52,326 nt of DNA from a virus. The stretch is taken from positions 1-52,326 of the IMG/VR virus record IMGVR_UViG_3300023112_000019; one strand, 5' to 3'. The notes beneath the pieces are model-generated. The model made no database searches. It was not told the origin of the DNA and was given only the letters and a program-made list of their open reading frames with translations. This document shows positions 1 through 19,349 of this stretch, one piece after another (position 1 is the stretch's first letter; every line of letters begins with the position of its first letter). Both the position numbers and the translations under genes were made by a program.

Positions 1-3000
1 TTTTATAAAATCTTTATTTAAATCATCATCAGCTTTGATTTCATCTGTCTTTTTATATTCAGAAAAACCTACTGAACCATCAGTATTCTGGTCATCAGAG
101 TCATCTGGGTAGACAACCTGAATAGAATTAAATACCCCGTCAGAGTTGACCCTCATTCCATTTTCGATGATGTCATGCTCTGCGGTAATCATGTGGTAAT
201 TTCTGTACTGCTTCATTAGCGTCGCAGGGATCTCTCCATTGTTTACTGGCTTGGCAGAGTTTATTGGTGCATCATCCACGTTCGATCTATCAACTTTCCC
301 ATTTGGATAAATGATATCTTTTGGTGGTGCCTTGCCATCAATTAGTCTCTTCTCATTCTTAAAGAGTTCTTTCTTTGAGAAAATTTTAGTAATACTATGC
401 CTTCCTGTTTTGGCTATTGTATAGTCTTTAAGGTTTCTTTCTACGGGACTTAGTGTTGCGGAGAGGTCATCATCTCCGCCCATTATTACTGCTTCTTCAT
501 AAGTTGGTCCTCTATGAAAGTATAGTTGCTCTGGGTAACCAAAAAAGATAGTGCTTCGTCTATCAAAATTTACAACATCACAGATTGTTCCTGGATGTCT
601 TAGTGTTAATTCTTGGAGAACGTCCCATATAGTTTGCTCATAGATAACAAACTTTGATCCTTTAAAGAATGTAAAGATTGCATCTTTGACACCTGCAATA
701 ACTCCAATAGTTCCGCCGATAATAAATCCTGCAGCGGCTCCAATAACTGCACCTGCAACTGTACCAACTACAGGAATGATTGATGCTGGGACGCCAAAGA
801 AGGCACCAATTCCGACACCTCTTCCTGCCCACTTAGTCACCTGATCCCTGAAGGTATCCCAGGACCCAAACAAGGAGGGTGCAAATATATTTTCTACAGC
901 AGTTCGTCCGCCAGCTCCACGCCAGAAGAAAGAACTTTCACCAGTAGTATTCTTTGCATTTATTGTTCCAAAGTTTTGAACCTCAGGAGAGCCATGAAGC
1001 AATTCACTAATCATGTTCTGTGTATTGGAGTTATAAGTAAAGTCATCAGCTACACCAACTCCTTTTAGTTCTTGGACTAGCTCTATTCCATCTCCTTGGC
1101 ATACGATTTCTACAACATCGCCTCCACCAATTTGTGAAACTCTTCCTGAAAATTCTACAGATAAATGATTTGGATCTCCCTCATAACCAAGTCTTAGCTC
1201 AATTCTAGTTCCTTCTTTAAGCATAACATCGTCTAGTTGATTGCTATTTGCTTTTTTGTCTCTACCTTTTGTCTCTCCACCTTTTGGTTTGGTTCTCTGG
1301 GTAGCAGGAAGTTCGTTTTTAAGCTTGCTGGTATTATCTTCAAAGGCTTTATTTACAAGGTCTTCTCTAGTATTGGCTAGTCTTACAACTAATATATCTG
1401 CAGGATTGTGTTTGTCTTTTGCTAGTCGAATATCTACTATTGCATTTATGTCATAGAAGTCTGTAAAATTTCTCCAGATACCACTACCTGCTAGTCTTCC
1501 TAGTCTGTCTTTGTCGACATCACTTAAGCTCCCAACGTCATCTTCTTTAACGTAGAGCTTAAATGTTGGCATTGATCTACGCATTGTGTATGTAGTATCT
1601 TGAAAATTATCTACAGCTGCTTGAGTATTTAGGAATTGTTGAGGACCACTAATCGGTGCTTGGATAAAACCTTTATCAAAGTCTCCTTTCTCTGGTCTTT
1701 CTTTGTCTGCACCTACAGTAATTATATTGGGAGCTGCAGCTGGTGGCCCTGGACTTCCTCTCATATCATCTGATATTTTTTTTGAAGCCTCCTGGTCTGA
1801 TACCTGTTCTGCAAATTGTTCTCCGCCTTTAGCATATCTTCCTTGTACTTTTTCTAATATTTTTCTTTTATATCTATTGTCGCCCTGATCTGACTTGTTA
1901 TAAAAAAAGAAGTCAGGCTGTAGAGTTTGATCTGGTAGCATCATGTCTGGATAGTTTGATTCGTCTGCTGTTAAATTAAAACCCTTAAACTCAGTTAGGT
2001 CTTTCTGATATGTAGTGAACCTTGCATCTTTCTCTTCTGTTCCAGCTGTTATCTTTAGTAAGTCCCACACAACTTCATTAACCATGTCTGAGCTGAAAGG
2101 TCTCATTGAAATTATTTGGTCACCACCATTGATATCGCTATTGGGCCAGATGACAGTTCTTCCTGGGTAATTATCTCTGATGTCACCTTTGACATCTCTT
2201 AGTCTTCTCTCTACAAGATCAGGATCACTTAGGGCTGACTCAACTGTTCCAAAGTCCTTTGCTGACAGAGCATCATTTAAGCTCTCTGTTAATTTTCTTG
2301 CAGCATTAAAATCAGGATCTGAATTTTGTGTATCAACCCCTATCTGGAATGTCTTTCCATTCTTTGCAATTCCATATTTGTCTGCAAGCTTTTGCACAAG
2401 AGAAAGAGAACTTTCATAGACCCTATTAGACGGTCCCTGGTTGGCTTGTTTAATATTAGTATCTATTGCTCTATGGTTTTCTGTTAGTGAGAAACTAAAT
2501 CTTGAACAGAAGGGCATTCCCTCTACTGTTTGACTTTCTGTGTTCTGAATCATGCAACCAAGATATTGATTGGGATCGAATGTTGACATCTTGCCAGTCT
2601 GCTCGTCTAGGACTTGCAGTCGCTGTTCATCATAGTGTTTATACTTGAGAAGCTTAGACATTGGGTGCTTAATAAAGATAGAGTCATTTTTAGCTACCCG
2701 TCTATAGTCAACTGCATTGCGATTAACTAGCTCTATAATACTATTTATTTTCGATAGACGACTGGACGTTCCAACTGGTGCCCCATCATTAAACCCATCT
2801 TTAAGTTCTGCATTTGCAAAAAGATTAAAGACAACGTTTCCATCTGAAGCTCCAAGGAACTGTGCAGTTGGCACGGTGTGCCCAATCAGAGGTATCGAAA
2901 CTGTTTTGGTTTGAAGACTTATTCTTGCTGACTCTACAAGCATTCTTCCAGAGTCTAGTACGGCAGCTGGATTATCAAAGTCTCTTATTCTGTATCTTCT

Positions 3001-3912
3001 GTACCTATAAAGGACTGTTCCTGCCTCCGCATCTGAGGCTTGAAATTCATCAACTGGTAGCCAGCCTTCTTTCTCTGCCTCTCTTAATGCCTCTTTTAGT
3101 TTGGCATCTGTTTCTACTACATATATTTTTTCTGATGGATCTATATCCAGACTAGTTAAAGCATCTATCTGAGCATTAGCATTATCTCTTTCTGCATCAA
3201 TTCTTTTGTACTCTTTATATATCAGCTCTAAGTCATTAGAATCACCTGCAGACATTCCGTTTGTATAAGCGCCAGCTATTGGCCCGCTTCCTTTCTCCCC
3301 AACGTTAGCTAGTGTCCCACTTTCTATAAATTTTGTAAATTGATTATCGGGAACAGCTGTGGCAATTGGGACTCCATTTTCTTCAACCTTTTTAAAAGCA
3401 AAGTCAGGAGAGAAAGGAGTGTAGTTAAACCACTCAAGATGAATCCTTACATTAAACATTCCAGGTTCTCTTGCTTTTGATTCTACATCTATCTGCTTAA
3501 TGACCGCAGCCATGTTCGTTTGGGATACATCTTCTGTTCCAATCCCAACAAATGTCTCGACATCTATTTTCTCTATCTCTCTTCCCACTATCTCTTTTCT
3601 TATCTTTTCATTTTCTATTGAAACAAAAGGACACTTTCTAGCTTGAATAAGTAATGGAGCCAGCTGCTCATTTACCCAGGCTTCTGCCTGTATATCATTT
3701 CCTGTTCTTGCATCATAACCTGTAGCAAAATATGTATCTATAATTATAGAGATAGTTCTACGACCACTCTTCACCCATGTACTGGATTGAGAACGCAGGG
3801 TTGAAACAGAGGCGTTGTGATCCTGTTTAAGGATTGTAATGTTCTTGGGTGGAACACGAAGCTCTATGTCATTGATTCTGAGAGAGCTTGAAGTTAGTGG
3901 TGCTGTTGCCAT
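1..3912 (-). CDS. Giant baseplate-hub-like virion protein, C-terminus beyond window
   Basis: The frame is open from ATG at 3912 to the left edge, giving at least 1304 residues with the C-terminus missing. Around residues 905-950 a pattern of the form xRLGYxGD, then FSGRVxxI, then Vx(I/V)xCxGDG matches the phage late control D / gp27-like hub fold, in which a barrel domain lines the end of the tail tube. A strongly hydrophobic Gly/Ala stretch at about residues 1035-1080 looks like a glycine zipper or a membrane-inserting segment, which is unusual in a hub. The start overlaps the stop of the upstream 1413-residue gene as TAATG, implying coupled translation. Position after the giant tail genes fits a baseplate role. 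The hub assignment rests on pattern resemblance; the rest of the protein is unrecognised. Confidence 0.6.
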   Translation of the reverse strand, partial: MATAPLTSSSLRINDIELRVPPKNITILKQDHNASVSTLRSQSSTWVKSGRRTISIIIDTYFATGYDARTGNDIQAEAWVNEQLAPLLIQARKCPFVSIENEKIRKEIVGREIEKIDVETFVGIGTEDVSQTNMAAVIKQIDVESKAREPGMFNVRIHLEWFNYTPFSPDFAFKKVEENGVPIATAVPDNQFTKFIESGTLANVGEKGSGPIAGAYTNGMSAGDSNDLELIYKEYKRIDAERDNANAQIDALTSLDIDPSEKIYVVETDAKLKEALREAEKEGWLPVDEFQASDAEAGTVLYRYRRYRIRDFDNPAAVLDSGRMLVESARISLQTKTVSIPLIGHTVPTAQFLGASDGNVVFNLFANAELKDGFNDGAPVGTSSRLSKINSIIELVNRNAVDYRRVAKNDSIFIKHPMSKLLKYKHYDEQRLQVLDEQTGKMSTFDPNQYLGCMIQNTESQTVEGMPFCSRFSFSLTENHRAIDTNIKQANQGPSNRVYESSLSLVQKLADKYGIAKNGKTFQIGVDTQNSDPDFNAARKLTESLNDALSAKDFGTVESALSDPDLVERRLRDVKGDIRDNYPGRTVIWPNSDINGGDQIISMRPFSSDMVNEVVWDLLKITAGTEEKDARFTTYQKDLTEFKGFNLTADESNYPDMMLPDQTLQPDFFFYNKSDQGDNRYKRKILEKVQGRYAKGGEQFAEQVSDQEASKKISDDMRGSPGPPAAAPNIITVGADKERPEKGDFDKGFIQAPISGPQQFLNTQAAVDNFQDTTYTMRRSMPTFKLYVKEDDVGSLSDVDKDRLGRLAGSGIWRNFTDFYDINAIVDIRLAKDKHNPADILVVRLANTREDLVNKAFEDNTSKLKNELPATQRTKPKGGETKGRDKKANSNQLDDVMLKEGTRIELRLGYEGDPNHLSVEFSGRVSQIGGGDVVEIVCQGDGIELVQELKGVGVADDFTYNSNTQNMISELLHGSPEVQNFGTINAKNTTGESSFFWRGAGGRTAVENIFAPSLFGSWDTFRDQVTKWAGRGVGIGAFFGVPASIIPVVGTVAGAVIGAAAGFIIGGTIGVIAGVKDAIFTFFKGSKFVIYEQTIWDVLQELTLRHPGTICDVVNFDRRSTIFFGYPEQLYFHRGPTYEEAVIMGGDDDLSATLSPVERNLKDYTIAKTGRHSITKIFSKKELFKNEKRLIDGKAPPKDIIYPNGKVDRSNVDDAPINSAKPVNNGEIPATLMKQYRNYHMITAEHDIIENGMRVNSDGVFNSIQVVYPDDSDDQNTDGSVGFSEYKKTDEIKADDDLNKDFIK

Positions 3913-6900
3913 TAGTGTCCTTTCCCTATCATATCTTTAATTGTAAACTTATCCATGTGAGACCTATGATCCTGTAATCTAACGTTTAAATCTTTCATAT
4001 TGGCTGAAGCATGAGCTCTTAGGGAATCAAAATTCGTTCCGACATCAGCCTGTCCTCGTACATCAAAGGAAGAAAACTTTTGTTCTGGGATTTGAAATAG
4101 TGTTTTGCCGGCAGATGCATCTCCCATGCCGTTTGCATATCCTTTTTCAGACTCATGTAATGGGCCTGCTGTCGCAGTTGGCTGCATCATCTTTGGTTTA
4201 GACATTAAACTTGCAGCTAAACCAATACCTGCTGTAGGTAGGATACCCCATTTTGCTATGTTTTTCAAGCCCTTACTCATAAAATGAGACGCTGCGTTTG
4301 ACGCATCTTTAAGCATAGCCTTGTATCCGCTGGCCTTGCTTATGTTTCTCTGCGCAATAGACGAGGCATAGTTGCCTGATGCTTGAAGATCTCTCCCCAA
4401 AGTATGAGACTCTATTACATTCTCAAGGTTTTTTGCACTAGATATCTTCTGGTATGCATTTCTTTGACTGGTTGCTCTATTCATTATTGACTCAACTTCA
4501 GCTGCCCGTAGCCTTGCATTCTCAATGCCTCTTGCTTCCTTCATCTCTTTTGCATAGCCCATTTTCTCAGCTAGCTCCATAGATGCTACCTCAGAACTAG
4601 ACTGCCTTATGGCATCTCCAGCCTCTTTTCCTCCAAAGCTTAGCTCGTCAAAAACTCTCTGAAGACTCTGGGCCTTCTCTCCTTTTCCCATTCTTGCGTA
4701 TTCTGTTCCAACAGATCCTCTAAAAATATCTAATACATCGTCAACTGAGCCTGAAAGCAGTGCTTCCTTTCCCTGGTGCTTTGCTTTAAGTACATTCTCT
4801 ACGAATAAATGGGAGAAGTCTTCGCCTAAATAGTATGCTTCTGCGGCACCTCGGCCCATGTTGGGTCTTAATTGTTCTCTTAATCCTATATGTATATTCT
4901 TGAATTCGTCAGAGAATGAGCCAATCTTTGATTCTAAATTCTTCTGTGCAGCATTAAGTCCTACTAGCTCTTGGTTTAATAAAGAGGTAATACCTTCTGG
5001 TGCTCTACCTTTAAGTTCAAATGCAGACATTCTCTTAAGGGATGAGGTAAACTCACTCCCCATAACACTTTGTTGTTGGCCGCCGTATCCGTAAAATTGT
5101 TCTATTGATCCTCTTGATTTTTCTGATGTAGCTGCGATAACGTTTAACTGATCCTTGTCGAAGTCGACAAACATTGATCTTCTAATTAAACTTTGAGAGG
5201 CATTCTCTCCAGACACAAATATGCGCCCTTTCTCGCCACCAACGTTACCAAACTCTTCAGCTGTTCTGATATTAACAGGTAGTGAACTGTGAGTACCTTC
5301 TATCGGCTCTCTTGTCATTAGTCCCCAAAGCCTTCCTTCTTCTGCCTGCTTTATAGCTTGAGCTCCAAACTTTTCTCCTATGTCACTTTTGGTCATAGCG
5401 ATAAGAGGAGCCTGCATGTCGTCTCCTATTTTCATTGCCTTTCCAAGTTCTTGTGCTGCTCTATCCATGCCATCTAGTGAAGATACAGCTTGTCCATATA
5501 CTGAACCACTAACCTTTCCTCCGAATAGATTTTTAGAGACAGCTCCTTCGACCTCGCCAAATGCTGCTTGGTATTTTTTCATTTTAGCTTCTTGGAATGC
5601 TTCGTCTTGCCCGTTCTTAACCGAGGCAAGTAAATCAAATGTAGCTCTATCCAAAGGACTTTTCCCAGCCTTTGATGCACCAACATATGGTGACATTGCC
5701 TCTGAAGCAAAGACAGTTACTTTATCTACTCCTCCAATCTCTTTCCCTAGATTGATAGTCATTCTTTCTTTACCCTGCATGTAGTTTCTTCTACCAGCAA
5801 GGTCTTCTTGAAGTAGCTTGCCTAGATCCTCTCCTACGTCAGCAAGGTTTACTCCTCTTGCTGCTTTGTCTCCTGCTATATTCTTTGCAGCATTAATCTC
5901 TCCAAGTTGAGCAAAAGGACTCTGCTCTCCAACTCTTCTTGATGTGAAATCTTCAAGAACATCCCCAAGCCCCATTGCCTGCAAGTTGAAGGCTGCACGA
6001 TCAGACATTCTACCCTGGCCAAATATCCCAGCTTGAGTACTAGAGATATCTGCAGATAAAACCATTTCACTTACGCTACTTCCAAGATGCTTCTTTCCTC
6101 CAAAGATCTCGTCTGTAGACTGGTTAGGGTGCCAGCTTTCTATTTTGTTTATCATTTCTTTACCAGACATATTACTGCCTTGGAACTCTCCGCCTTTGAT
6201 CCCTAACTCTTCTAGTCTTTTAATTGCAGCAGCGTCCCCGCTTTCTACAACACCAGAAGCATAAGATAGGATTCCTGTCATCCCCTCTCTGGCCGGTAGC
6301 ACTCCGCCCTTTATCTTTACGGGTGCCTCTGCAGAGATCATGTCAACGTCTTTAAATATCGTATTGGCAAAACCTTCTGCTTGAGCTTCTGTTGCTCCTT
6401 GACCATATTTCTCTATGGCCTCCATCCAACCTGCTGTTAGAGGAGTGTTTGCTGTTCCTTTCACGGTCCACTTTCCACCGCCTCCGCCACTAAATGACTT
6501 AGACATAACACCATACTTAAACCTACTTTCTGTCCCAATAGATAGTACGCCCTCGTTCTTTCTTATGCTGCTAATTGTATTAGAGAGGTCTCCTCCTTTC
6601 ACCTTTATAGGATTTCCTATAGTGTCGTATCCCATGACACCATATCCTTTAATAGATTCATTAATACTTTGAAGGCCTCTTCTTTTTCCTGCTAGTTGTT
6701 TTTCTAAACTCTTCAGCCCTTCAGTTTCACCTTTCATTCTTTGGGTGCTAATACTAGACTCTAGTGAATCTATCTCTCTTCCTATTCCAAGCTTTCTGTC
6801 TTCTAACCTTCTTAGTTTCTTATTCAGGTCAAGGTTTAATCCTTCTAGCCCTCCAGGGGAGGTCATTGCTTTTGCAACATCAGCTGAGTTCATACCCTGT

Positions 6901-8153
6901 GCAGCAGCCTGCCTATAAACATCTTTCATTAATCTTTCACCAAATTGAGTTCCCTCTCTCTGTAAGTCTATGTGAAAGTTATACATTTTATTTTTTATAC
7001 TAATATTTGATTTGTTTGAGAGAAGGACTTCTTCGGCAGCTAACTCATGAGCTGGTAGTCCTTGTCTCTTTAGAGCCTCTCTATATGTATCCATATTCTT
7101 AACAGTCGCAACTTTGAATTGACCTAATCCAGAGTCTATATCTGGAGTCCAGTTTATAGATGTCTTCTTAGTTCCTTCAAATTTACTTTGTCTATGTAGT
7201 TGATAAGAAGAGATAGAAGCTTCAGCTGCAGGCATTCCTCTTGACAAGAGTGACTCAGGAGTAGCCATTACTCCACCTACAAACATACTTTGATTACCAC
7301 CAGAGTAGCCAGGGTTTCTGGCTATGTCTTTCATCATGTCTATTCTGGCTTCTCTAGTTTTCTGGCCAAATAGATCTACTACAAATTGTTCTTTTCTTAT
7401 TTCTTGCAATCCAACAGCTCCTGGTCCAGACCCTTTTGCCCCTTCCCATATTGCTTTATCTGTTGCTGCTCTTCTTATATCTCTTGGGTCAATCTCCCCT
7501 GCTTTGATTCTACTTAGCTCTTCTTGGTATTTTTTAGTAAGGGCTACATCAATTCCTTCTAGCTCAACTCCTGTTTCTCCATAGCTAAGTAAAGATGATC
7601 GTGCTATATGCGTATTCTTTCCGCCAAGAGTCATTGCTCCCTCAGTATTAACTAATGGTATATCAAATACGAAATCTTTTCCACCCCTAATTCTAATCAT
7701 ATCTGAATATTCAGCACCTGGCTGAGAGTGAGCGAAGGCTTTTACTGAACCGAACTTAGCTTCAACCATATCATATAGGCTGCTAACTTCTTTTCCAAGC
7801 TCTGCACTTCTCCCCTTATAGCCTCCCTCAAGGTACCCTATCTCTTCCATGATACCTCTCTTGCCTTTTAGGAAAGTTGTCTCATAAGATGGTCCCGATG
7901 TTTCTGGTATACCACTTCTAAGAAAGTTACTCATTGTAAGACTTGAGGCAACTGGGTTTACTGCCTTATTAAATGTTGGAGCTACGGCAGCTTGAGGCGC
8001 AATAGATCTTCTAAAGTATCCAGTGGGATCAGCCGATGAAGGAAAGTCTCTAGCTGTTAAGTAAAGACCATATCCAGAACCAGCGATTAGAGTTCCTCTA
8101 CCCAGCACACTGGCTGCGTCTACATCATTTTCAAAGTTAAATTTTTCTATCAT
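3912..8153 (-). CDS. 1413-residue virion protein with RNA-polymerase-like DFDKD motif
   Basis: This 1413-residue protein lies between the tape-measure-position gene and the hub gene; its start overlaps the upstream stop as ATGA. Seen directly: a probable coiled coil at residues 440-500, a Gly/Ser-rich loop at 553-560, a hydrophobic segment near residue 1310, and TREP at 947-950 followed 49 residues later by DFDKDQ (997-1002). In multisubunit RNA polymerase beta-prime an Arg-x-Pro motif precedes the metal-binding loop NADFDGDQ by about 35 residues, and single-chain relatives (QDE-1, YonO, crAss-like gp66) keep three aspartates in the same pattern. Here the usual Gly is Lys. A Lys pair at 874 and 880 (KNLFGGK) could belong to a first barrel. 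The polymerase idea is inference; a purely structural or second tape-measure role is possible. Confidence 0.6.
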   Translation of the reverse strand: MIEKFNFENDVDAASVLGRGTLIAGSGYGLYLTARDFPSSADPTGYFRRSIAPQAAVAPTFNKAVNPVASSLTMSNFLRSGIPETSGPSYETTFLKGKRGIMEEIGYLEGGYKGRSAELGKEVSSLYDMVEAKFGSVKAFAHSQPGAEYSDMIRIRGGKDFVFDIPLVNTEGAMTLGGKNTHIARSSLLSYGETGVELEGIDVALTKKYQEELSRIKAGEIDPRDIRRAATDKAIWEGAKGSGPGAVGLQEIRKEQFVVDLFGQKTREARIDMMKDIARNPGYSGGNQSMFVGGVMATPESLLSRGMPAAEASISSYQLHRQSKFEGTKKTSINWTPDIDSGLGQFKVATVKNMDTYREALKRQGLPAHELAAEEVLLSNKSNISIKNKMYNFHIDLQREGTQFGERLMKDVYRQAAAQGMNSADVAKAMTSPGGLEGLNLDLNKKLRRLEDRKLGIGREIDSLESSISTQRMKGETEGLKSLEKQLAGKRRGLQSINESIKGYGVMGYDTIGNPIKVKGGDLSNTISSIRKNEGVLSIGTESRFKYGVMSKSFSGGGGGKWTVKGTANTPLTAGWMEAIEKYGQGATEAQAEGFANTIFKDVDMISAEAPVKIKGGVLPAREGMTGILSYASGVVESGDAAAIKRLEELGIKGGEFQGSNMSGKEMINKIESWHPNQSTDEIFGGKKHLGSSVSEMVLSADISSTQAGIFGQGRMSDRAAFNLQAMGLGDVLEDFTSRRVGEQSPFAQLGEINAAKNIAGDKAARGVNLADVGEDLGKLLQEDLAGRRNYMQGKERMTINLGKEIGGVDKVTVFASEAMSPYVGASKAGKSPLDRATFDLLASVKNGQDEAFQEAKMKKYQAAFGEVEGAVSKNLFGGKVSGSVYGQAVSSLDGMDRAAQELGKAMKIGDDMQAPLIAMTKSDIGEKFGAQAIKQAEEGRLWGLMTREPIEGTHSSLPVNIRTAEEFGNVGGEKGRIFVSGENASQSLIRRSMFVDFDKDQLNVIAATSEKSRGSIEQFYGYGGQQQSVMGSEFTSSLKRMSAFELKGRAPEGITSLLNQELVGLNAAQKNLESKIGSFSDEFKNIHIGLREQLRPNMGRGAAEAYYLGEDFSHLFVENVLKAKHQGKEALLSGSVDDVLDIFRGSVGTEYARMGKGEKAQSLQRVFDELSFGGKEAGDAIRQSSSEVASMELAEKMGYAKEMKEARGIENARLRAAEVESIMNRATSQRNAYQKISSAKNLENVIESHTLGRDLQASGNYASSIAQRNISKASGYKAMLKDASNAASHFMSKGLKNIAKWGILPTAGIGLAASLMSKPKMMQPTATAGPLHESEKGYANGMGDASAGKTLFQIPEQKFSSFDVRGQADVGTNFDSLRAHASANMKDLNVRLQDHRSHMDKFTIKDMIGKGH

Positions 8154-11100
8154 ATAATTTCACCCATAGCTCTAAGCTCTTGGTAGATCTCATTATTTCG
8201 ATCGTACTCTAAATCGTAGGATACTGTTGGACCTACACTATCCCTCTGAATTATCTGAGGATTTCTAATTCCTGCCTGAACCGCTTGCTTGTAAACCTGT
8301 TCATAGGTAACGCTTTCAGCTAGAGGTTGGAATGGGTCCACTCCCTCTAATGATTCTTCAAGATATGGCTTTCTTCTTAGCCCTCTTAGTCTATCATCCC
8401 ATAGATCATAGTAGTGATATTCCCTACCTGTGTCTATTAGGTATTTTAATTTTACATCCTCAAGATCCACATCAGCTCTCCATCCGATCCAGTCTTCTGC
8501 TGGAAGATTTTCGCTAGCCTGTAATGCTTCTCCTTCTGCTTGTCTTCTTGCTCTAATGGTAGCCATTCTATTGAAGACTTCTTTCTCTAGATCCTGACCT
8601 TCTGCTTGGCTTATATCAAGCTTGCCTTCTGCCATATCATTTAGCAAGACCTTATCCCATTGGGCTATATATAAGTCTTTCATATTGTTAGGCATGATCT
8701 CAAGTAAGCGAGCCTTGTCTTCTGGTCCTGCTTCCTTGAACTGTTCAAAGTACACCTTTTCTCTTTTAGGTAGCGCTGCCATTAATCTAAATTCATTCTC
8801 GTATACATCTGTGCCGGCTAAGGTTCTACCCGCCTTGTTATGGAAAGTTCTTGCTTTGCCTTCTGACCCTTGAGCCATTGCCATTCTTTCATGGCGCTTA
8901 TTTTTAACGTACTCTATCTTATCGAAGTAACTCTCTATTTGTCTAGCATCTCTTACTGCGTCTGGGATTCTATCTATCCCTGCCATGTTGGCAACTGTTG
9001 TAGCAAAAGGTTTAATAAAATCTTCTATTGGTCTCTGCCAAAGTTTAAACTCTTTACCGTATATTGATTCTTCATAATCTGTCATAGCAGATGAAGGAGG
9101 AAGGAGTTTATGAGCAGGAGCGATAGGGCTTAATTGCTCTAGTGGATTTGCTCTTGCTATATCAACTAGTGCTGCACCGTATCTACCAAGGACGCTTTGA
9201 TCGTATACGTCGTCTCTAAAAGACTTTCTTTTACGCTTATCCTCAAGCTGCTCTTCTGTTCTTTGAAAGATCTCTAATTCATAATCTGTTGGATCATGTG
9301 CTTCTAATTCTTTTCTTGCACTTCTGAACTCTCTAGAATATGGAGCAATATCTGCAAGTATTTTATATCTATGTATTAATGGGTAATCTGCAGGATTAAC
9401 TCCCTCAAGTTCTTTATACCTGGCTGCGTATCCTCTTCCTGGTAATCTGTATTCACCTTCTTGAACTTTAGTAAATGGATCACCTTGCTTGAAGTTCTTG
9501 TAGTAGTCTTCTCCAGGCATCCAGTCAGGCATATCATTGGCTATAGGATTTACATACTCTGTTGTATAAGGTCTCTTAGGAATGAAACGCCTGATAGGCT
9601 CTGTCATACCAAGGAAACCACCGAGGTTTAAATCCCAGAATTTCCTACGAGTGCTATCTATATCTGCAGATGATTGAAGAATAGGTGTATGTTCGAATAC
9701 ATCTTGCTCTCCTGTCACTGCTTGTTTAATAGCCGAGGCCACAAAACCACGTAGACCTACAGCTTCATAGGTTGTATAGTATTGTTGTTTAATTTGTTCA
9801 GCGGCACTATATGGTGTGACCGCATCTTCTGGAGGAAGTGCTCCTGCAATCTTTTTAGATGGAGCATACTTTCCTGATCCACCATGCAGGTGATCTCCTC
9901 TATGTCTCCCTTCAAATATTTCTGGATGCATTAGTACTGGTGGCTTCATTACTCTACCAACAGTCCATTCGTATGCGGCTCCAAATAGACCGAGGTCTTC
10001 TCCGGTTGAACCAGCTATAGGATAGGGTCTATCCTCGTAGTGCATCTTCTCTAACCAATAAGGATCAGCTAGGTCTCTTACAAATTTGCCAACAGGAGAA
10101 ATATCTTCGCCATCGTATATTGACTTGTCTGTAGGTCTATCTAGTATTCTGTTGTACCAGTTAGGACGATAGTAATCTGTCTTGGATCCTTCCCATGGGG
10201 TCGTTCCAAATTCCCACCAGCGAGCTTTCTTGATAGCAACTTCTTTACCACCAAGGTATTCTTCATCTAGTTCTGCTACTGATTTTTCTGAACCTAGACC
10301 AAAGAGTAAGAATGGCGCAGCTAATGCAGCCATCGCTAGCCCTCCATGCTTCCCCCATCTTAAGGCTCTTGTATAATTGCCTCCCATAGTTGGGATTTTT
10401 CTTAGACCTGCCGCCATTGCTTTCTCGGCCGTCTTTGACTTAATCATTGCATCGTATCTAGCCGGGCCAGCTGCAGCTCTTGCTTCTTCAAATATACCAG
10501 CACCCATTCCGAGTGCAGTTCCTGTTATCATCCCAGACAAGGTAAACCCTAGCCATGGTTTGACTCCAGTTAATCCAGGTGCTTTTTCTTCTGCGTATTT
10601 CCTGATCTCTGTTAAGCCAGAGGCTTCAGATAGTCCAGCATAAGTCATGTGTGCTACACGAGCACCCTCTGCTAGAACTCCTGTTATCCCGGCTTTGCCT
10701 GCAACGCTATCTTCTGGTGCAACCTGTCTAGTCATCCAGTTCAGTGTTCCGAACACTGCTGGTAAGCCAATAAGTAAAGGAAGAGCTTTTGCTGCATGTC
10801 TTCCTAGTATCTGAGGAAGAGTTCCTATTAATTGTTTCTCTCCTCCAACACCAAACTTAGGCAATCTTTTTGTAATAGACTGTACAGTATCTGTTACTCC
10901 TCCAGTTTTAATATTAGGAAATAGATCCCTAAAGGCTTTAACTGGATCGTCAACTAGACGTAAGTATTTAGATAATGTTTCATGACCATAAGCATGAGCG
11001 GCACGGAATGCTGCTTGTCTCTTTGTCTTCCCACCACCAATTAAGATTTCGTGCTCTCTACCAACTCCAGCTATATTAAATGTATGTTCATACGATTTTG

Positions 11101-13660
11101 TAAACTGAGTCTTAGAAGTACTAATATTTTTATCGTGTATTGCTTGGTATGCTCTAGCTTCTTTTAATAGAAGTTCTCTTCCGCCTGTTCCTGTTACACC
11201 ATAAAGCTTTCCGCCCTCGAATGACATTTTGGTAAACTTCTGGAAGTCAGCCCCTTTGCCAATACCGAAAGTCTTCTTGTTTCTTTCTGTAAGCTGCATA
11301 AAATATGTTTCATAACCATACCCTACAGACTGTTTAAAGCTTCTATTTTTAACTTTATTTAACTGGTCTCCAACTGGATCAAAAGCTTTTGTTCCTAGGT
11401 CTACCTCAAAGTTCATATCCTTTAAGATACTTGGAGACATCATTGTACTCAAACTGAAAGCTTTTGGTATTCCACCTAGCCCTAGTTCGAATCTTCTTAA
11501 TGCGTTATATGCTACGTCTTTATATTTTGCGTTTTGTCTTCCCAGAGCTTCTGGGCTTATCCCCATATACGAGAACTTGTTCAGGTCAAGAGGGTTGCCT
11601 TTTATGCTATAGACATCTCTATCCCATAGGAATCTTGCTGCCCCAACCATTGCTGCTGCAGTAGCTATGCCACTCCAGGCTACAGGCGTTGGGTCTTCGT
11701 GAGCTGTTGCAAGTGAGCCTTTAAATCCTGAACCAAATTCTGTTGTGTTCTTTCTTTGCTTACCAAACCATCCATGAGGCATGGCGTTGATACTATTATA
11801 TGCAGCACCTTTTCCAGAAAACTGATTAGTTATTTTGTATAGTGCACCCTGCCTGTATGACTCTTCTTCGTTATATCCGTCTTCCCACATTTCTGCGGCA
11901 CCTGCAGCCAGGTGTTTGTTTCTTCCTAACCTAAGAAGATCCGTTAATGAGTTGAATGTTAAATCTTTTCCTTGTCCTGCAGAAAATGCTTTCCAGTCTT
12001 TGAAAAAGTCATGCCCCCAAATTCCAAGGCCTTCTCTCTCTGCCTTCCCTCCAGCAGCCATAAATGTAGCTCTGTCTACTGCGTCTTTATGTTGAGGTCC
12101 AAATTCAAGAGACGAAGCATAACCTTCTGCGGCTAGTTTTAAGTTAAGGTTTTCGTTGCCCTTATAGATAACACCAAGATATCTACCATAGGTTTTTTCA
12201 GTAGGATCTACTATTAGCCTAAGGTCTTCTTTGTCCCCTAGCATTTCTTTAAATCTATCTGTAGCAGCTTGCCCCAGAGGTTGCTCTTGACCAACTCTAT
12301 ATGGTCCTAGTGGATCATTAGCATGGGTTGTTTCAGGAGCATCAATTCCAGACATTCTAATTACGACATCTGGTTCAGATGAGCCTTTCTTGTTCAAGAC
12401 AAGAGTATCGGCATCATCAACCATAACGTTATATTCGGATAGTTTAACTTCTCTTAATTGTTTCCTTTTCTTATTCAGCCCTTGAAGAGTTGCCTGGTCT
12501 CCAAAGTACATCAAGTCTAGACGACTAATCTCTCCATGCTGGACTTTCTCCTGGCGTCTGTCTCTATCTTTATTTATGGCCTCAGCCATTAGCGGGTCTT
12601 TTAATGCTGTAGACATTCTATTGATTCTGTTCATATTGAAACCAGAACCAAAGTCTGTTATGTGATTTCTTGATTGGCCGAACCAACCATGATTCAATCC
12701 TTCTATTGTATTATAGTCATCATCTTTGCTTGAGATGCCTGCTGTCTTACCTAGTAGGTATCCAGCTGCCGCAACACCACCAGCAATAGCAGCATATCTC
12801 CCCAGCCCTTTTGGAAGTTTGCCAGCAAGTTTATTTACCTTGCTTACTTTGATTCCAGCTTTAGCTTCTGCTTGTAAAAATATTTCTGTACTAGAAAGGC
12901 CATACTCTCCAAGCCTAAAACCTTGAGAGCTTTTAGCATTAAGCATTTCATTTCTATAAGATGCGTAATTAGTTTTAAGCATTGTTCCAGAGAACAACTT
13001 CGCCCCGTAGGAATTTGCAAGTTTCTTTCTCACATTAAGAATGCTTCGAGTCTCTTGTTCTACCTTTAGTGCTGTTGGATCCTTCCAGGCTTCAAGCCAT
13101 TTGCCTAGCCCCTTCGGAACATTACCAGCTTTAATCTGCTCAATGCTATGGATTAATCTTCTATTTAAATTCTTATTAGTACCAGAACCAAATGACTCTT
13201 TTAAAAACTGCTTATGTATACCTACAGATATATCAGCCTTTGGCGATATGATTCCTTTCTCTTGAGCAATAGCGTTCAGAGATTTTGCCAGCTCGATAGT
13301 ACTGATGGTACCACCGCCAGCCTTGCCTTGCATTACCATCTGCTCGTAAACACGCATCTGTCTGATACGGTCTCTTTGCCTTGCAACCTGCTTGCTCATT
13401 CTATTTAAACCAACATCCTCTAGGTCTTTCATCCTTTGATGTCGGTTTTCTTTTATGATTGCTTGATAGGCAGTGTCAGGAGTTCCAGTCTTTCTTAGAT
13501 TTATATCATAAGAAAAGAGGTTGGCTTTATTAGATGTTAGATTAAATATGTCTCTTGAGGAGGCTGATTTGTTTGAGTTCAAGACGAACGAGTGCTGCGT
13601 GGGCAGATAAGCCCCCGTAGCTCTACGGTTGGAATTTAATTTGCTTGAGTTTCTAGCCAC
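8150..13660 (-). CDS. Giant tail protein in tape-measure position with staphylococcal-nuclease domain
   Basis: This 1836-residue protein directly follows two chaperone-like genes, the usual place of the tape measure protein. Residues about 405-548 form a staphylococcal nuclease (thermonuclease) domain. The catalytic set is complete: D418 in DDADT, R435, D440 and E443 in GIDAPE, and R493 in YGR, equivalent to D21, R35, D40, E43 and R87 of the S. aureus enzyme. A 26-residue motif containing HGWFG and FGSGF occurs twice, at 316-341 and 621-646, flanking the nuclease. Hydrophobic Gly/Ala segments lie at about 288-306, 660-677, 956-972, 1036-1056 and 1106-1122, compatible with membrane insertion during ejection. 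The last 700 residues are polar. The nuclease is well supported; the tape-measure role rests on position, length and hydrophobic segments. Confidence 0.75.
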   Translation of the reverse strand: MARNSSKLNSNRRATGAYLPTQHSFVLNSNKSASSRDIFNLTSNKANLFSYDINLRKTGTPDTAYQAIIKENRHQRMKDLEDVGLNRMSKQVARQRDRIRQMRVYEQMVMQGKAGGGTISTIELAKSLNAIAQEKGIISPKADISVGIHKQFLKESFGSGTNKNLNRRLIHSIEQIKAGNVPKGLGKWLEAWKDPTALKVEQETRSILNVRKKLANSYGAKLFSGTMLKTNYASYRNEMLNAKSSQGFRLGEYGLSSTEIFLQAEAKAGIKVSKVNKLAGKLPKGLGRYAAIAGGVAAAGYLLGKTAGISSKDDDYNTIEGLNHGWFGQSRNHITDFGSGFNMNRINRMSTALKDPLMAEAINKDRDRRQEKVQHGEISRLDLMYFGDQATLQGLNKKRKQLREVKLSEYNVMVDDADTLVLNKKGSSEPDVVIRMSGIDAPETTHANDPLGPYRVGQEQPLGQAATDRFKEMLGDKEDLRLIVDPTEKTYGRYLGVIYKGNENLNLKLAAEGYASSLEFGPQHKDAVDRATFMAAGGKAEREGLGIWGHDFFKDWKAFSAGQGKDLTFNSLTDLLRLGRNKHLAAGAAEMWEDGYNEEESYRQGALYKITNQFSGKGAAYNSINAMPHGWFGKQRKNTTEFGSGFKGSLATAHEDPTPVAWSGIATAAAMVGAARFLWDRDVYSIKGNPLDLNKFSYMGISPEALGRQNAKYKDVAYNALRRFELGLGGIPKAFSLSTMMSPSILKDMNFEVDLGTKAFDPVGDQLNKVKNRSFKQSVGYGYETYFMQLTERNKKTFGIGKGADFQKFTKMSFEGGKLYGVTGTGGRELLLKEARAYQAIHDKNISTSKTQFTKSYEHTFNIAGVGREHEILIGGGKTKRQAAFRAAHAYGHETLSKYLRLVDDPVKAFRDLFPNIKTGGVTDTVQSITKRLPKFGVGGEKQLIGTLPQILGRHAAKALPLLIGLPAVFGTLNWMTRQVAPEDSVAGKAGITGVLAEGARVAHMTYAGLSEASGLTEIRKYAEEKAPGLTGVKPWLGFTLSGMITGTALGMGAGIFEEARAAAGPARYDAMIKSKTAEKAMAAGLRKIPTMGGNYTRALRWGKHGGLAMAALAAPFLLFGLGSEKSVAELDEEYLGGKEVAIKKARWWEFGTTPWEGSKTDYYRPNWYNRILDRPTDKSIYDGEDISPVGKFVRDLADPYWLEKMHYEDRPYPIAGSTGEDLGLFGAAYEWTVGRVMKPPVLMHPEIFEGRHRGDHLHGGSGKYAPSKKIAGALPPEDAVTPYSAAEQIKQQYYTTYEAVGLRGFVASAIKQAVTGEQDVFEHTPILQSSADIDSTRRKFWDLNLGGFLGMTEPIRRFIPKRPYTTEYVNPIANDMPDWMPGEDYYKNFKQGDPFTKVQEGEYRLPGRGYAARYKELEGVNPADYPLIHRYKILADIAPYSREFRSARKELEAHDPTDYELEIFQRTEEQLEDKRKRKSFRDDVYDQSVLGRYGAALVDIARANPLEQLSPIAPAHKLLPPSSAMTDYEESIYGKEFKLWQRPIEDFIKPFATTVANMAGIDRIPDAVRDARQIESYFDKIEYVKNKRHERMAMAQGSEGKARTFHNKAGRTLAGTDVYENEFRLMAALPKREKVYFEQFKEAGPEDKARLLEIMPNNMKDLYIAQWDKVLLNDMAEGKLDISQAEGQDLEKEVFNRMATIRARRQAEGEALQASENLPAEDWIGWRADVDLEDVKLKYLIDTGREYHYYDLWDDRLRGLRRKPYLEESLEGVDPFQPLAESVTYEQVYKQAVQAGIRNPQIIQRDSVGPTVSYDLEYDRNNEIYQELRAMGEII

Positions 13661-13669
13661 TAGCTTCCT

Positions 13670-14290
13670 CTAGTTCTGTCTTTTACTAAAGTCACCTGAA
13701 GGTGCGCCAAATTCTTCTTCGCGCAGGTTTGCATTTACTTTTGTAAAATCAACAGATGTCTCAGTATATTCTTGTAACCTATCGAATATTTTACCACTTC
13801 CATCGGTAGGCTGGCTAGCTGGGGTCTGGAATTCAAACTCTCTTTTAAGTATAAATTCAGCTTGAGCTAAACGTCTAATCAAAACAGGCCAAGTCATCTT
13901 CTCTAATGTCTCTGGCAGATAAGAAGGAAAAGCTTCACAAATAGTTATAATTGCTTGCTCTCTTGCGTCGGCAAGTAATTCTCTTGCATCTCCTAATTGA
14001 ATGTTTACACTATCAATTGATTGAGGACAAGAAAGATATAGGATAAGTTGAGATACAGTAGTGATAAGGCCCGCAGGTAAGTAATCCTTTCCGTTACCAA
14101 AGGAGTGCTCGACGACACAGTCGTCCCAAATACGATCCTCTAGATCGAACTTGAACTCAGGGTAGGCCTGCATGATATATCGCATGGCTTTGTAGGACTC
14201 ATAGTCTAGTAAACTAAACATGACTCTACCTTCAGTCGTTGCGAAAAGATACAGGTCCCTATGTTTCTTAAGGACCTTATCGAAATCCAT
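13670..14290 (-). CDS. Putative tail assembly chaperone, second gene of pair
   Basis: This 206-residue protein is read just before the giant tape-measure-position gene (9-nt gap). Its ATG overlaps the stop of the 171-residue gene as TAATG. Many tailed phages encode two chaperones here, the second often reached by frameshifting. I find no usable slippery site: the frame of this gene has a TAG four codons upstream of its own ATG and the codon pair there does not re-pair. Separate initiation by coupling is therefore more likely. The protein is mostly polar and helical by appearance, with no catalytic motif. Function is inferred from position only. Confidence 0.55.
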   Translation of the reverse strand: MDFDKVLKKHRDLYLFATTEGRVMFSLLDYESYKAMRYIMQAYPEFKFDLEDRIWDDCVVEHSFGNGKDYLPAGLITTVSQLILYLSCPQSIDSVNIQLGDARELLADAREQAIITICEAFPSYLPETLEKMTWPVLIRRLAQAEFILKREFEFQTPASQPTDGSGKIFDRLQEYTETSVDFTKVNANLREEEFGAPSGDFSKRQN

Positions 14291-14805
14291 TACAGTTTTC
14301 TAACTAGCTGCATTGCCATTTCAGGGGCGATAAAGTTAGAGACTTGTAGAATCATGTCTCTGGCGCTGTCAATAGAGCCGGCTGTTAAAACATTGATGTT
14401 TTGCTGATCCAGCCTAGGCCACAGTGTAGCTTTCATTACAATAGCTTCTGCTTTCTTGTCATCTGGAATCTTTTGAATCTTCTGCATTAGAGCTCTCCAC
14501 TCTAAGCGCTTCAGAGGCCTGAATACGAAGTTCTCATGCTCGCTGAGACTCATTAGGTACACGTCACCTATCTGGGCCTTCATCTGCTCAATCTCTTCGT
14601 CTGAGGGTCTGTTCTCAAGTTCCTTAAAGGTCTGGATAACAAAGTCTTGCTCCATCTGCTTTTGTTGGATCTTGGCCAGTAATTCTTTCTCTTCATCTGT
14701 AAGGCTAGCGATTACTGGATCTTCTTCCTCATATGACTGTTCTGCGAAATCTTCTTGAGCTAAATGAGCATCAAGATCTACGTCTGCGTAATTTTCTTCT
14801 GACAT
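14290..14805 (-). CDS. Putative tail assembly chaperone, first gene of pair
   Basis: This 171-residue protein has an acidic N-terminal 40 residues, then a core with FVFRPLKRLEW and a later IVMKATLWP ... AGSIDSARDMI segment. That resembles chaperones in which an Arg-containing RPLxRxEw strand precedes a Cys/Thr-x-WP helix and a terminal helix ending in SNF or SGF. The gene lies between the tube-like genes and the giant tail protein. Its SD is GGGAGA seven to ten bases before ATG, and a sigma70-like promoter lies just upstream at 14831-14859. The family assignment is by pattern memory and context. Confidence 0.6.
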   Translation of the reverse strand: MSEENYADVDLDAHLAQEDFAEQSYEEEDPVIASLTDEEKELLAKIQQKQMEQDFVIQTFKELENRPSDEEIEQMKAQIGDVYLMSLSEHENFVFRPLKRLEWRALMQKIQKIPDDKKAEAIVMKATLWPRLDQQNINVLTAGSIDSARDMILQVSNFIAPEMAMQLVRKL

Positions 14806-14830: not shown

Positions 14831-14859
14831 ATTATATAGTTATATTAGTCTTCTTGCAA
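14831..14859 (-). promoter_or_regulatory. Sigma70-like promoter for chaperone/tail block
   Basis: On the minus strand, TTGCAA (14854-14859) is followed after exactly 17 bases by a perfect TATAAT (14831-14836). The predicted transcript would begin near 14824 and leave a leader of about 19 bases carrying the SD of the 14805 gene. The -35 box lies inside the end of the upstream tube-like gene. A terminator at 16521-16555 would reduce read-through from upstream, so an internal promoter makes sense. No mapping data are available. Confidence 0.5.
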
Positions 14860-15460
14860 TAAAATTATATTGTTCTTGAACTGGACGACCGTCCGCATTA
14901 ACAACCTTGCCTTTACCCATAATCTGTATACCGGAAATAGTCTCACTAGGCGAGTCCTTTCCTAACTCATAGCCATATCCAACAGTTATATCGAATGTAC
15001 TATGATTAAAATTTTCTTTAGTGTTATCTTCTGATATCCCATTGAACTCTCTAGACTGTTCTACTAGACTTCCTTTTGCTGTTCTTGCATCGATCTCATC
15101 AAAAAATTGACTAAATCTTTGCCTTTTATCCGTTAGGTATGTTAGTGACTTTTCTTTTGCATCATCTTTCTTTGTCTGTATAAGCCTAGCTTCTCTAGTT
15201 GTGTTAAATGATTTATACCTATCTAGGATTAACCATAGATAGTTTGGCTCCCTAAAGTTAATAGTGAAAGAACCAGTTACTATAATATTCCCTTTGGGAA
15301 TGAAGTCATAGTGTTGTGATCCGTATCCAAACTGAGGGAGTCTTGTGTGCTGAACGCTATAGTCTAAAGCTAGAATATCATCTACCCATACATCACCAAT
15401 AAAGGCTGATGCCTGTGCTCCTGAAAAATATTGTCCATTAATTGTTAAAGCTTCTGCCAT
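14840..15460 (-). CDS. Tail tube-like paralogue 3
   Basis: This 206-residue protein is the third of three consecutive tube-like genes. It shares with the other two the order: short N-terminal strand, an aspartate/valine strand leading to LDYSV, a loop with FGYG, then a Gly-x-Ile-x-VTGSFTINF strand and a helix with LW(L/I)ILDRYK. The paralogue at 16588-17196 has ISYSI, YTMG, IAGSLIFIVF and HALLERFK at the same places. Start ATG overlaps the preceding stop as TAATG. It may be a baseplate tube-extension protein (like T4 gp48/gp54), a completion protein or a minor tube protein. The paralogy is seen in sequence; the exact role is not determinable. Confidence 0.6.
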   Translation of the reverse strand: MAEALTINGQYFSGAQASAFIGDVWVDDILALDYSVQHTRLPQFGYGSQHYDFIPKGNIIVTGSFTINFREPNYLWLILDRYKSFNTTREARLIQTKKDDAKEKSLTYLTDKRQRFSQFFDEIDARTAKGSLVEQSREFNGISEDNTKENFNHSTFDITVGYGYELGKDSPSETISGIQIMGKGKVVNADGRPVQEQYNFIARRLI

Positions 15461-16509: not shown

Positions 16510-16520
16510 GCATCCTCGTA

Positions 16521-16555: not shown

Positions 16556-16587
16556 AATATTAGACTATTTAATTTCATATTGCAAGC

Positions 16588-17213: not shown

Positions 17214-19337
17214 TTATTGTTTCGCCAGAGAAGTAATAATCGTAATTTTACGTAGCTCGAAAGCTGGTACGATTGTTAATTCTACTGTTGCATCACCTTG
17301 AATCTCTTGAGCAGTTGTTGCAGAAACTCTAGCTTCAAATCGTTGGATGTTTCCAAGTTCTTGTAAAGCAGCAAGTTCTCTTACGATACCTGTTTCAAGT
17401 GCAATTCTAGCAAGCGCTGTGTTAGGCTCACCGATATAAGGTTCAGCTACGGTTCTAACGGAATCAATTGCGTCAGCAATAATTCTCATCGTTGTTAATC
17501 TTGTAAAGTCACTGTCGTCTCTAGCAGCAGTTGGAGCATCAGAAATTCTTAATCTATTTTCTTTTGCCTTAATTGCAACATACTTTAGTTTCGCTAATGA
17601 ATTTAGTTTTGTTTTACTAACTCTAAATGGAGCTCTTACACCTGAAACAATCTTGTTGGTAGGCGCGCTAGCAACAGGTAGTCCAGAGTAGAATCCACCG
17701 TAGAATCCAGCCATATTAGCTTGGTATCCAAAACCAGTTTCGTCAGTTGAATTAAAGAATGTTAAGTACATAGCTGTTAAAGAAATGTATTTACCAATAT
17801 CAATTTTGTGACCATTTCTATCTGTTAAGATATCTACATCTGCATCAAATTCTGCTGACGTTGGTAGCCATCCAGATTCTGTAGCAAAGAAGCCTTTCTC
17901 TCTAACTAGAGTTCCAGCAACAAATTTGTTACCTAGAAGTCCTGAGCCATCAAGAACAACATCTCCTGTTGCGTCTGTAGTTGCTTCCTTCCCTACCCAA
18001 AGAGAAATATCTTTAGCTGAGAATGATGCTGGTGCTTTGGTACCAATAACACCTGTTACTTCATTATCGTTTACCGATAGTGAGAAACAAAAGTTTGCTA
18101 GTTGGTAAGCAAAGTTAACTTCATGGAAGTCATCTGATGATAAAGCTGATCCATCAATACCTGTAGTAGCGGAGGCTGCGCCTACACCTGCAGGAAAGAC
18201 TTCTGCTGATCCGTCATCGTTAGTATCCCAAAAGTAAAAGAATTCACCTTGATATTCTTCTACGTGTAGTAGACCAAGTCCATCACCAGCTGAGCCAGCA
18301 ACAGGATATCTACGTCCTACGTCTAAAGAAATATCAGAAGATAAAGTAATAGTGTCGCCATCTGCAACGTTTTTATCATCTAGATATACGTTTTGTGGAA
18401 TGACAATATCAACTTCATCATTTTCTAATGATCTATATGTTTCAGCTAGTGATTCATAAAGTTTCATTTTAGATGGACTAAGTCCGTCTGACCCATCTTC
18501 AAGGTTGTGTGCTGTGTCCGCGTCATATGTAAAGTCAACAGTGATGGCCTCTCCACCAGTTAGTAACGATCCAAGGTCAACGTTAATTTGATCAACGCCA
18601 AGTGTCCCTGTTCCTACTAATAGTGCCCATTCTGTATCTACGAGTTCTACTCCATCTACATATACTACGTGACTTCCTGCATTCGTTTCTGCCTGAGTTA
18701 GGTCGAATGCTTCTGGTCCAGCTGCTGCCATAGCACCAACCGCTTCTGCGGCTACTGATACTGTGTCTTGTGCGACGTCTCTTAAAGAAACGAAAGCGTT
18801 TGCTGTACCAAGGTCAACACCAGCATCGAAAGTTCCAGAGACGATCACTTCTCCGGTATCAATGGGTTGCCCACCTGGGTTGTTATCATATACTAAAAGA
18901 TCTAAAGCGTTTTTAACCTGTAGTCTGCCTTCTACGGCATTAGGACCAACAGTCGCTGGGGTCTGATAGAATACGAAGTAAAGATCAGCTGCAGAGCCGT
19001 CTTTAATTAAAGTTGTGATTGCCGTTGGATCTGTAACTTGGTTATCAGTTCCTACGCCATAAAGTGTTGCTGCTTGTGCATTGATCCTGTGAAGAAACGT
19101 ATTTGTTGAGCCACCAGCTAAAGTTTCATACATACCTCTGACAAGAGTTCCCTCTTTGCCAAATTCGTTTTCACTTTCTTGTGCTCTCACTACTTGCTTC
19201 TTAAGACCAGCTACCCCTTGAGAAGCGGTCCCCAGAACTAGTACGGCAGGTGCTGCAGAAGCTTCGCTTATCTGTAGTCCACCATCTTGTAGTTCATGGA
19301 TAATGCCAGGCAGGTTTTTAAACTTATCTAGAGCCAT
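17214..19337 (-). CDS. Tail sheath protein
   Basis: This 707-residue contractile sheath subunit forms the outer tail tube that shortens on infection. The N-terminus has a PAVLVLGTASQG strand and an EFGKEG ... GMYETLAGG region, typical of the sheath handshake arm and first domain. The C-terminal domain has RLTTMRIIADAIDSV, helices with ALARIALETGIVRELAAL and a closing strand FELRKITIITSL, the sheath family's conserved end. I start at ATG 19337, eight bases after AAGGAG, rather than at the in-frame TTG two codons earlier. The middle (about residues 150-450) is a long Asp/Gly-rich beta insertion, probably surface domains. The order sheath-tube supports the call. Confidence 0.9.
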   Translation of the reverse strand: MALDKFKNLPGIIHELQDGGLQISEASAAPAVLVLGTASQGVAGLKKQVVRAQESENEFGKEGTLVRGMYETLAGGSTNTFLHRINAQAATLYGVGTDNQVTDPTAITTLIKDGSAADLYFVFYQTPATVGPNAVEGRLQVKNALDLLVYDNNPGGQPIDTGEVIVSGTFDAGVDLGTANAFVSLRDVAQDTVSVAAEAVGAMAAAGPEAFDLTQAETNAGSHVVYVDGVELVDTEWALLVGTGTLGVDQINVDLGSLLTGGEAITVDFTYDADTAHNLEDGSDGLSPSKMKLYESLAETYRSLENDEVDIVIPQNVYLDDKNVADGDTITLSSDISLDVGRRYPVAGSAGDGLGLLHVEEYQGEFFYFWDTNDDGSAEVFPAGVGAASATTGIDGSALSSDDFHEVNFAYQLANFCFSLSVNDNEVTGVIGTKAPASFSAKDISLWVGKEATTDATGDVVLDGSGLLGNKFVAGTLVREKGFFATESGWLPTSAEFDADVDILTDRNGHKIDIGKYISLTAMYLTFFNSTDETGFGYQANMAGFYGGFYSGLPVASAPTNKIVSGVRAPFRVSKTKLNSLAKLKYVAIKAKENRLRISDAPTAARDDSDFTRLTTMRIIADAIDSVRTVAEPYIGEPNTALARIALETGIVRELAALQELGNIQRFEARVSATTAQEIQGDATVELTIVPAFELRKITIITSLAKQ

Positions 19338-19349
19338 GTCCAATTCTCC

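Follow-up and report, generated by a model that had tools for sequence, protein, structure and literature searches.

A putative single-chain two-barrel RNA polymerase in the tape-measure slot of large sheathed-tail phages

The window analysed here is an IMG/VR virus record of 52,326 bases, with all main genes on the minus strand. Gene order is terminase, portal, capsid, sheath, three genes in tube position, two in chaperone position, giant 1, giant 2 and baseplate hub. Both of the giant reading frames that an earlier note on this DNA had described are present. The genes are as follows:

45553-47508, minus strand: terminase
39844-41973, minus strand: portal
34702-36090, minus strand: capsid
17214..19343, minus strand: tail sheath (phrog_16991, E 3e-68; Pfam sheath C-terminal, E 1e-5)
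14840-15460, 15460-16578 and 16588-17196, minus strand: three tail-tube-position genes between sheath and chaperones, all matching phrog_9206
14290..14805, minus strand: tail assembly chaperone homologue (ME3_33), 171 aa, by sequence match to ME3
13670..14290, minus strand: second small gene before giant 1, 206 aa, in tail chaperone position (by position only)
8150..13660, minus strand: giant 1, 1836 aa, conserved virion protein at the position of 0305phi8-36 gp145, with an inserted SNase domain
3912..8153, minus strand: giant 2 (P0002), 1413 aa, putative single-chain two-barrel RNA polymerase homologue in the tape-measure slot
1..3912, minus strand: baseplate hub (P0001), T4gp27/P2gpD-type position; the frame is open and runs off the window

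Giant 1 matches proteins annotated as virion structural or hypothetical in Acinetobacter phage ME3, Moorella phage MTATph1 and Bacillus phage KLEB27-3. These phages share the order sheath, tube, chaperones, giant 1, giant 2, hub; the exception is MTATph1, which has a few additional genes ahead of the hub. The ME3 annotation links the slot genes to Bacillus phage 0305phi8-36, and the window has the order from sheath to hub, with sequence homologues, that places it in the 0305phi8-36/ME3 structural lineage. In 0305phi8-36 the matching region begins with the chaperone genes orf143/144 and continues with orf145, with orf146, which was called tape measure chiefly on its length, and with the hub gene orf147 (PMC2147016). 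Because the gene order corresponds to orf143-orf147, giant 2 occupies, by gene position, the tape-measure slot of this lineage. Around the tape measure genes of 0305phi8-36, all genes except orf143/144 are described as structure genes (PMC2147016); the products of the slot are therefore virion proteins in that phage.

The giants had been described as following the tail chaperones. This holds for the 171-aa product, which is 26% identical to the ME3 'tail chaperonin' (E 3e-9) and dozens of loci have a homologue of it directly before giant 1. The 206-aa product is not recognisable as a chaperone by sequence, the comparison giving only a weak signal. Translational coupling of the giants, also proposed from the sequence, is borne out: the stop codon of giant 1 and the start codon of giant 2 overlap as ATGA. 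The end of giant 2 and the start of the hub overlap as TAATG. Among 26 non-redundant relatives with a polymerase-type giant 2, the genes for the two giants overlap in 17 and are within -20..+10 bases of each other in 24; tight coupling is thus a feature of the lineage.

Several glycine-zipper proteins were also part of the earlier proposal. Of the hub and the two giants, the hub alone is above chance, with seven GxxxGxxxG motifs against 0.56 in shuffles; giants 1 and 2 are not (3 against 1.5 and 3 against 2.2, respectively), and the zipper argument thus applies to the hub only. Such a strong segment is unusual for a baseplate hub.

673..795, minus strand: glycine-zipper membrane-like segment in the hub (GxxxGxxxG count against shuffles)

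Searches with the single giant 2 sequence gave no match in Pfam, PHROGs, tblastn against 50,697 phages or a back-translated scan; its identity came only from proteins in the same slot of related phages. The most conserved block of the giant 1 family is encoded by 177 viral-contig stretches, and 80 loci were retrieved. A scan of genome contigs with giant 1 brought up no relative in prophages or bacteria.

9311..9643, minus strand: most conserved giant 1 family block, NxMPxWLPG...ILADVAPYS, residues 1340-1450

In a first set of slot proteins, most of them without pairwise BLAST similarity, the giant-2s share R.P followed 25-60 residues on by D.D.D. KLEB27-3 gp034 carries the textbook form of the motif (NRYPTINQSTIQA...ADYDGD), and a 50% relative of P0002 retains LWGLITREPIEGTHS...DFDKD. 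Two-barrel RNA polymerases carry a conserved RxP..H/S..Q segment 35-60 residues before DxDxD, and giant 2 has its counterpart with R948 and P950; the Q is missing in P0002 and is there in most relatives. R.P...D.D.D occurs in 27 of the 33 giant-2s of polymerase-type groups (shuffles: 0.77 expected, at most 5 in 200), a set selected after one clade was seen to be without the motif; over all 56 non-redundant giant-2s the count is likewise 27. By comparison, it occurs in 2/30 giant-1s and 1/27 third genes.

Alignment of the giant-2s with L-INS-i brings four RNA-polymerase-like blocks into register: a lysine-glycine-lysine loop, G(K/R)xxGSRFL, RxP and DxDxD. The main alignment (A6) contains 24 giant-2s, with P0002 as its first row and the others mostly 12-18% identical to it. 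Only G508, K552, D997, D999 and D1001 are invariant in these 24 sequences, while R948 and P950 are near-invariant. In an alignment of 28 sequences, the three aspartates are the only invariant columns. The second lysine of the beta-like barrel, K561, is less conserved and its spacing varies, as judged by eye. The positions in the window are:

5151..5165, minus strand: catalytic-type DxDxD motif of giant 2, D997-F-D999-K-D1001; invariant in 24 and 28 giant-2s and aligned with RNA polymerase beta' DxDGD in a PDB profile search
5304..5312, minus strand: R948-E-P950, equivalent of the beta' 'RxPTxH' upstream of DxDGD; near-invariant, spacing kept in the motif survey
6498..6500, minus strand: K552, invariant lysine of the beta-like barrel (alignment of 24)
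4749..5576, minus strand: beta'-like double-psi barrel region, residues 860-1135, the basis of the A7 profile

A family profile built without P0002 and its 50% relative retrieves P0002 at E 9e-15. It also retrieves left-out members with canonical motifs, namely L019 (DNDGD), L023 and KLEB27-3 gp034 (DYDGD), at E 4e-10 to 3e-5, the DYDGD members being reached at E 4e-6 and 3e-5. The barrel-region profile gave 105 matches against all PDB sequences (E up to 10), and the best 60 of the 105 are all RNA polymerase large subunits. The best match, phage AR9 beta', has its DxDGD aligned on the giant 2 DxDxD; E-values against solved polymerases are modest, this best one being 0.004. Restriction to the barrel region was needed, as a profile of the whole giant 2 alignment gave no real match in PDB. 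The Pfam Rpb1 model (PF00623) does not detect the giant 2 family in whole genomes, and the RDR family model (PF05183) has no match in the window or the ME3 genome at E 0.1.

Predicted structures point in the same direction. The AlphaFold model of P0002 has a pLDDT of 56.9 and is weakest in the beta-like half; its top 50 Foldseek matches are all RNA polymerases, and VIA-align gives Z 11.9 with the Pol IV largest subunit and Z 10.7 with QDE-1. A relative (L037) models better (pLDDT 71.8, pTM 0.70), and its top 50 Foldseek matches are likewise all RNA polymerases. The N half of the L037 model (residues 1-523) aligns to Rpb2/beta at Z 11.3 and the C half to Rpb1 at Z 10.8; QDE-1 aligns over both halves (330 residues, 4.1 A). 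Matches in a viral structure library include an uncharacterised ME3 protein, a 'minor tail protein' and viral polymerases. Foldseek E-values are about 1e-3 to 1e-4 and global TM scores are low, and the strength of this evidence lies in its consistency.

4332..6044, minus strand: approximate beta'/Rpb1-like half of giant 2, residues about 704-1274 (VIA-align range matched to Rpb1/beta'/QDE-1 chains)
5994..7676, minus strand: approximate beta/Rpb2-like half of giant 2, residues about 160-720 (transferred from L037)

Giant 2 very probably has an RNA polymerase fold. Judged from aligned motifs and models, it appears to be a divergent single-chain two-barrel RNA polymerase homologue, with beta and beta' fused. 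The label 'polymerase-like' given to it earlier is thus upheld by relatives, profile and structure, and by no single-sequence family match.

The slot does not hold a polymerase in every related phage. In a sister clade of 17 non-redundant loci (e.g. L049, L083, L097), giant 1 is about 2200 aa and giant 2 about 1600 aa; these giant-2s have no catalytic-type DxDxD and no match to the giant 2 profile. The polymerase is dispensable to the tail design and the slot can hold another protein, since this clade has an unrelated protein in the same place. It provides a natural comparison with and without a slot polymerase. The clade, to which L059, L069, L081, L106 and similar loci also belong, has the same gene order. 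In a further alignment (A3), the RNase_T/DnaQ exonuclease family is matched by one giant-2-slot protein (Pfam E 5e-5), while two fall into phrog_192, 'DNA polymerase exonuclease subunit', at E 5e-11; on account of these matches, further enzyme domains may be fused to slot proteins.

The catalytic-type motif of P0002, DFDKD, has lysine in place of the glycine of DxDGD. This need not mean inactivity, because DFDID is found in the polymerase of the crAss-like phage phi14:2; by analogy, DFDKD would be compatible with activity. The phi14:2 sequence used here is AGO48955.1 (2180 aa), which we take to be the virion RNA polymerase of that phage (gp66 in the literature).

Giant 2 could instead have kept the polymerase fold while becoming mainly a structural or tape-measure protein, catalytically dead or vestigial. 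The corresponding slot of 0305phi8-36 is assigned to the tape measure (PMC2147016), the sister clade retains a similar-sized non-polymerase protein there, and the giant 2 sequences are extremely divergent, with identities mostly of 12-18%. The columns that stay invariant over this divergence are the reverse of what decay would give, being solely the catalytic aspartates, one lysine and one glycine. Moreover, gp96 of Thermus phage P23-45, which occupies the equivalent slot, is active (PMC10770324). A mainly structural, inactive giant 2 is therefore considered unlikely.

Alternatively, giant 2 might be an RNA polymerase that is not part of the virion, its gene lying in the late structural operon by chance and its product acting once infection has begun or late. 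Two related genomes (G020 and G021, the records of L098 and L105) encode separate RDR-type polymerases (PF05183) elsewhere, G020 at two places; other genomes, including ME3, show none at this sensitivity. Polymerases of their own are thus in use in these phages, and the second gene resembles the virion/non-virion pair of P23-45. The position of the giant 2 gene speaks against a non-virion role: it lies between chaperones and hub, coupled to the gene of a virion protein, in dozens of diverse phages. In 0305phi8-36 the products of this region are virion proteins (PMC2147016), and KLEB27-3 gp034 is annotated as a structural protein. A non-virion enzyme is accordingly rated as highly unlikely.

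The nuclease attributed to giant 1 in the earlier note is readily found. The Pfam match, at residues 434-548, scores 55.8 bits against a cut-off of 21 and covers nearly the full PF00565 model. The catalytic residues are apparently retained, with the usual acidic residues and arginine in VDDADT, VIRMSGIDAPE and YGRY, as read from the sequence. The domain and its surroundings are:

12017..12361, minus strand: SNase domain of giant 1, residues 434-548 (Pfam PF00565, E 7e-15; PHROG endonuclease, E 2e-11)
11831..12616, minus strand: cassette, residues about 349-610, missing in a 62% relative (L005/L006; alignment to the relative)
12641..12691, minus strand: HGWFG..R...TDFGSG, copy 1, residues 324-340, upstream of the SNase cassette
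11726..11776, minus strand: HGWFG..R...TEFGSG, copy 2, residues 629-645, downstream of the SNase cassette

The 62% relative aligns to giant 1 residues 1-348 and from 611 onward; it is without the SNase cassette and has a single HGWFG..R...TDFGSG copy where the window's giant 1 has two. No SNase was found in the other giant-1s searched. The fixed 'enzyme set' of nuclease and polymerase that had been proposed for this locus is not supported: the SNase sits in an inserted cassette that both near and remote giant-1 relatives lack, which rules it out as part of a conserved pair. The conserved unit is the giant 1 virion protein together with the polymerase. From its distribution, the SNase is an accessory, exchangeable module of tail proteins.

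Other irregularities were seen in giant 1 genes. The giant 1 of the 62% relative is frameshifted into 892- and 625-aa frames (L006, 8303-12848), which is either real or an assembly error. In KLEB27-3 (gp031-gp033; L003, 12118-19271), the giant 1 gene is split by about 1.1 kb containing a 211-aa frame (gp032). MTATph1 giant 1 aligns over both KLEB27-3 halves with hardly any residues lost, pointing to an intron or a comparable insertion within the gene of a virion protein. Intein domains are contained in two of the 17 giant 1 homologues in alignment A2 (PF14890, E 2e-10, Hint).

Among all loci fetched, the sole other SNase of the giant 1 type is in the hub of MTATph1. The protein at this hub position is annotated 'endolysin' (L002, 25707-32384), and its SNase is homologous to that of the window's giant 1. 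PHROG family phrog_8809 spans both SNase-like and hub segments. A nuclease can thus sit at the tail tip, as would be the case if both giants were outer baseplate proteins and the SNase acted on extracellular nucleic acid. An RNA polymerase, however, requires NTPs and phage DNA, which it would meet only inside the cell, and the slot holds lumen proteins in most tailed phages; an outer location of the giants is very improbable. Giant 1 itself carries several hydrophobic stretches and is probably the lumen or membrane partner of giant 2.

The preferred reading is that giant 2 is a tail-built two-barrel DNA-dependent RNA polymerase, delivered at infection for the first phage genes, with giant 1 as its coupled virion partner; the probability of this is put at about 0.72. 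Delivery with the genome is the natural reading because giant 2 is a putative polymerase, lies in the tape-measure slot and belongs to a slot whose products are virion proteins in 0305phi8-36. By analogy with P23-45 gp96, giant 2 would ride in the tail lumen, be expelled into the cell with the DNA and make the first phage transcripts during DNA entry, with no need for the host polymerase. Giant 1, whose gene lies upstream and is coupled to that of giant 2, is a conserved virion protein and probably the tail-lumen or channel partner of giant 2; the SNase domain gained by giant 1 in this phage would be delivered together with it. For this phage, presence in the virion, ejection, activity, promoter use and any role of the nuclease in the cell are inferred.

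The delivered polymerase might serve primarily as a DNA-entry motor, internalising the genome by transcription, with early-gene expression second. For P23-45, Chaban et al. propose that the DNA is transcribed while it is being translocated (PMC10770324). As the primary function of giant 2, this is thought distinctly unlikely, and delivery of a polymerase for the first genes is retained as the main reading.

A broader proposal is favoured only slightly over its negation. A widespread lineage of large, mostly uncultivated phages with sheathed tails would pack a complete, fused beta-beta' RNA polymerase in the tail, where it would replace the tape measure or serve as one. It would be delivered with a channel-forming partner able to carry exchangeable cassettes such as SNase, and infection would start on the phage's own transcription. 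One sister clade would have replaced the polymerase in this slot.

Two-barrel virion polymerases are already known. In the literature found, Thermus phage P23-45 (2024) is the single described case of a tape-measure gene that encodes an RNA polymerase. The same arrangement, with a shorter and separate protein, is indicated here across dozens of diverse large phages whose tails are sheathed (contractile-type), including the cultured phages Acinetobacter ME3 and Bacillus KLEB27-3. This suggests that the combination of tape slot and polymerase is common and present in a different tail type. No paper found recognises the giant 2 family, and a published survey with ME3 among its phages did not pick it up; it may already be listed in the supplementary survey of Chaban et al. 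A polymerase identity would explain why this lineage's 'tape measure' does not resemble one, and the family would add a highly divergent branch to the two-barrel polymerases. Host-independent early transcription and passage of a polymerase through the tail tube become testable in culture.

The closest known system is P23-45 gp96, a virion RNA polymerase fused to a tape measure, the N-terminal part of which is active and transcribes pre-early genes (PMC10770324). Both gp96 and giant 2 are, on present evidence, two-barrel single-chain polymerases with DxDxD, in the tape-measure slot and formerly annotated as tape measure. However, gp96 has 5002 aa and also contains a long tape measure, to which the polymerase is fused and which bears transmembrane and metallopeptidase domains. 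Giant 2 has 1413 aa and no such fusion; it has one weak hydrophobic segment (1299-1317) and no peptidase match in Pfam. The P23-45 tail is long and non-contractile, whereas giant 2 comes from a sheathed-tail lineage and is preceded by a separate giant virion protein. By hhalign, the two sequences align over 13 residues at the DxDxD stretch with a probability of 1%.

The phi14:2 polymerase is another virion type. Like giant 2 it is a single chain with two barrels, and both depart from DxDGD. The hhalign match to giant 2 is weak (probability 10%, E 0.003, 92 columns), with the motif aligned. Close kinship of giant 2 with either gp96 or the phi14:2 polymerase is not claimed, given these weak alignments.

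YonO, QDE-1 and 0305phi8-36 orf99, which are RDR-like, resemble giant 2 in having the two barrels on a single chain. Among single-chain structures, QDE-1 matches the giant 2 family best (L037 model, Z 10.8, 330 residues). Unlike giant 2, orf99 is a separate non-structural gene (PMC2147016). The beta' part of giant 2 has AR9 beta' as its best sequence and Foldseek match; in the jumbo-phage polymerases (AR9, phiKZ) beta and beta' are split over several subunits, whereas in giant 2 they appear to be fused. In comparison with staphylococcal nuclease homologues (PF00565), the giant 1 domain is distinctive in being inserted into a giant virion protein, between two HGWFG...TDFGSG copies. The 0305phi8-36 'tape measure' orf146 has the same position as giant 2 between chaperones and hub; a tape measure is a long helical ruler, while the part of giant 2 that was tested has a predicted enzyme fold.
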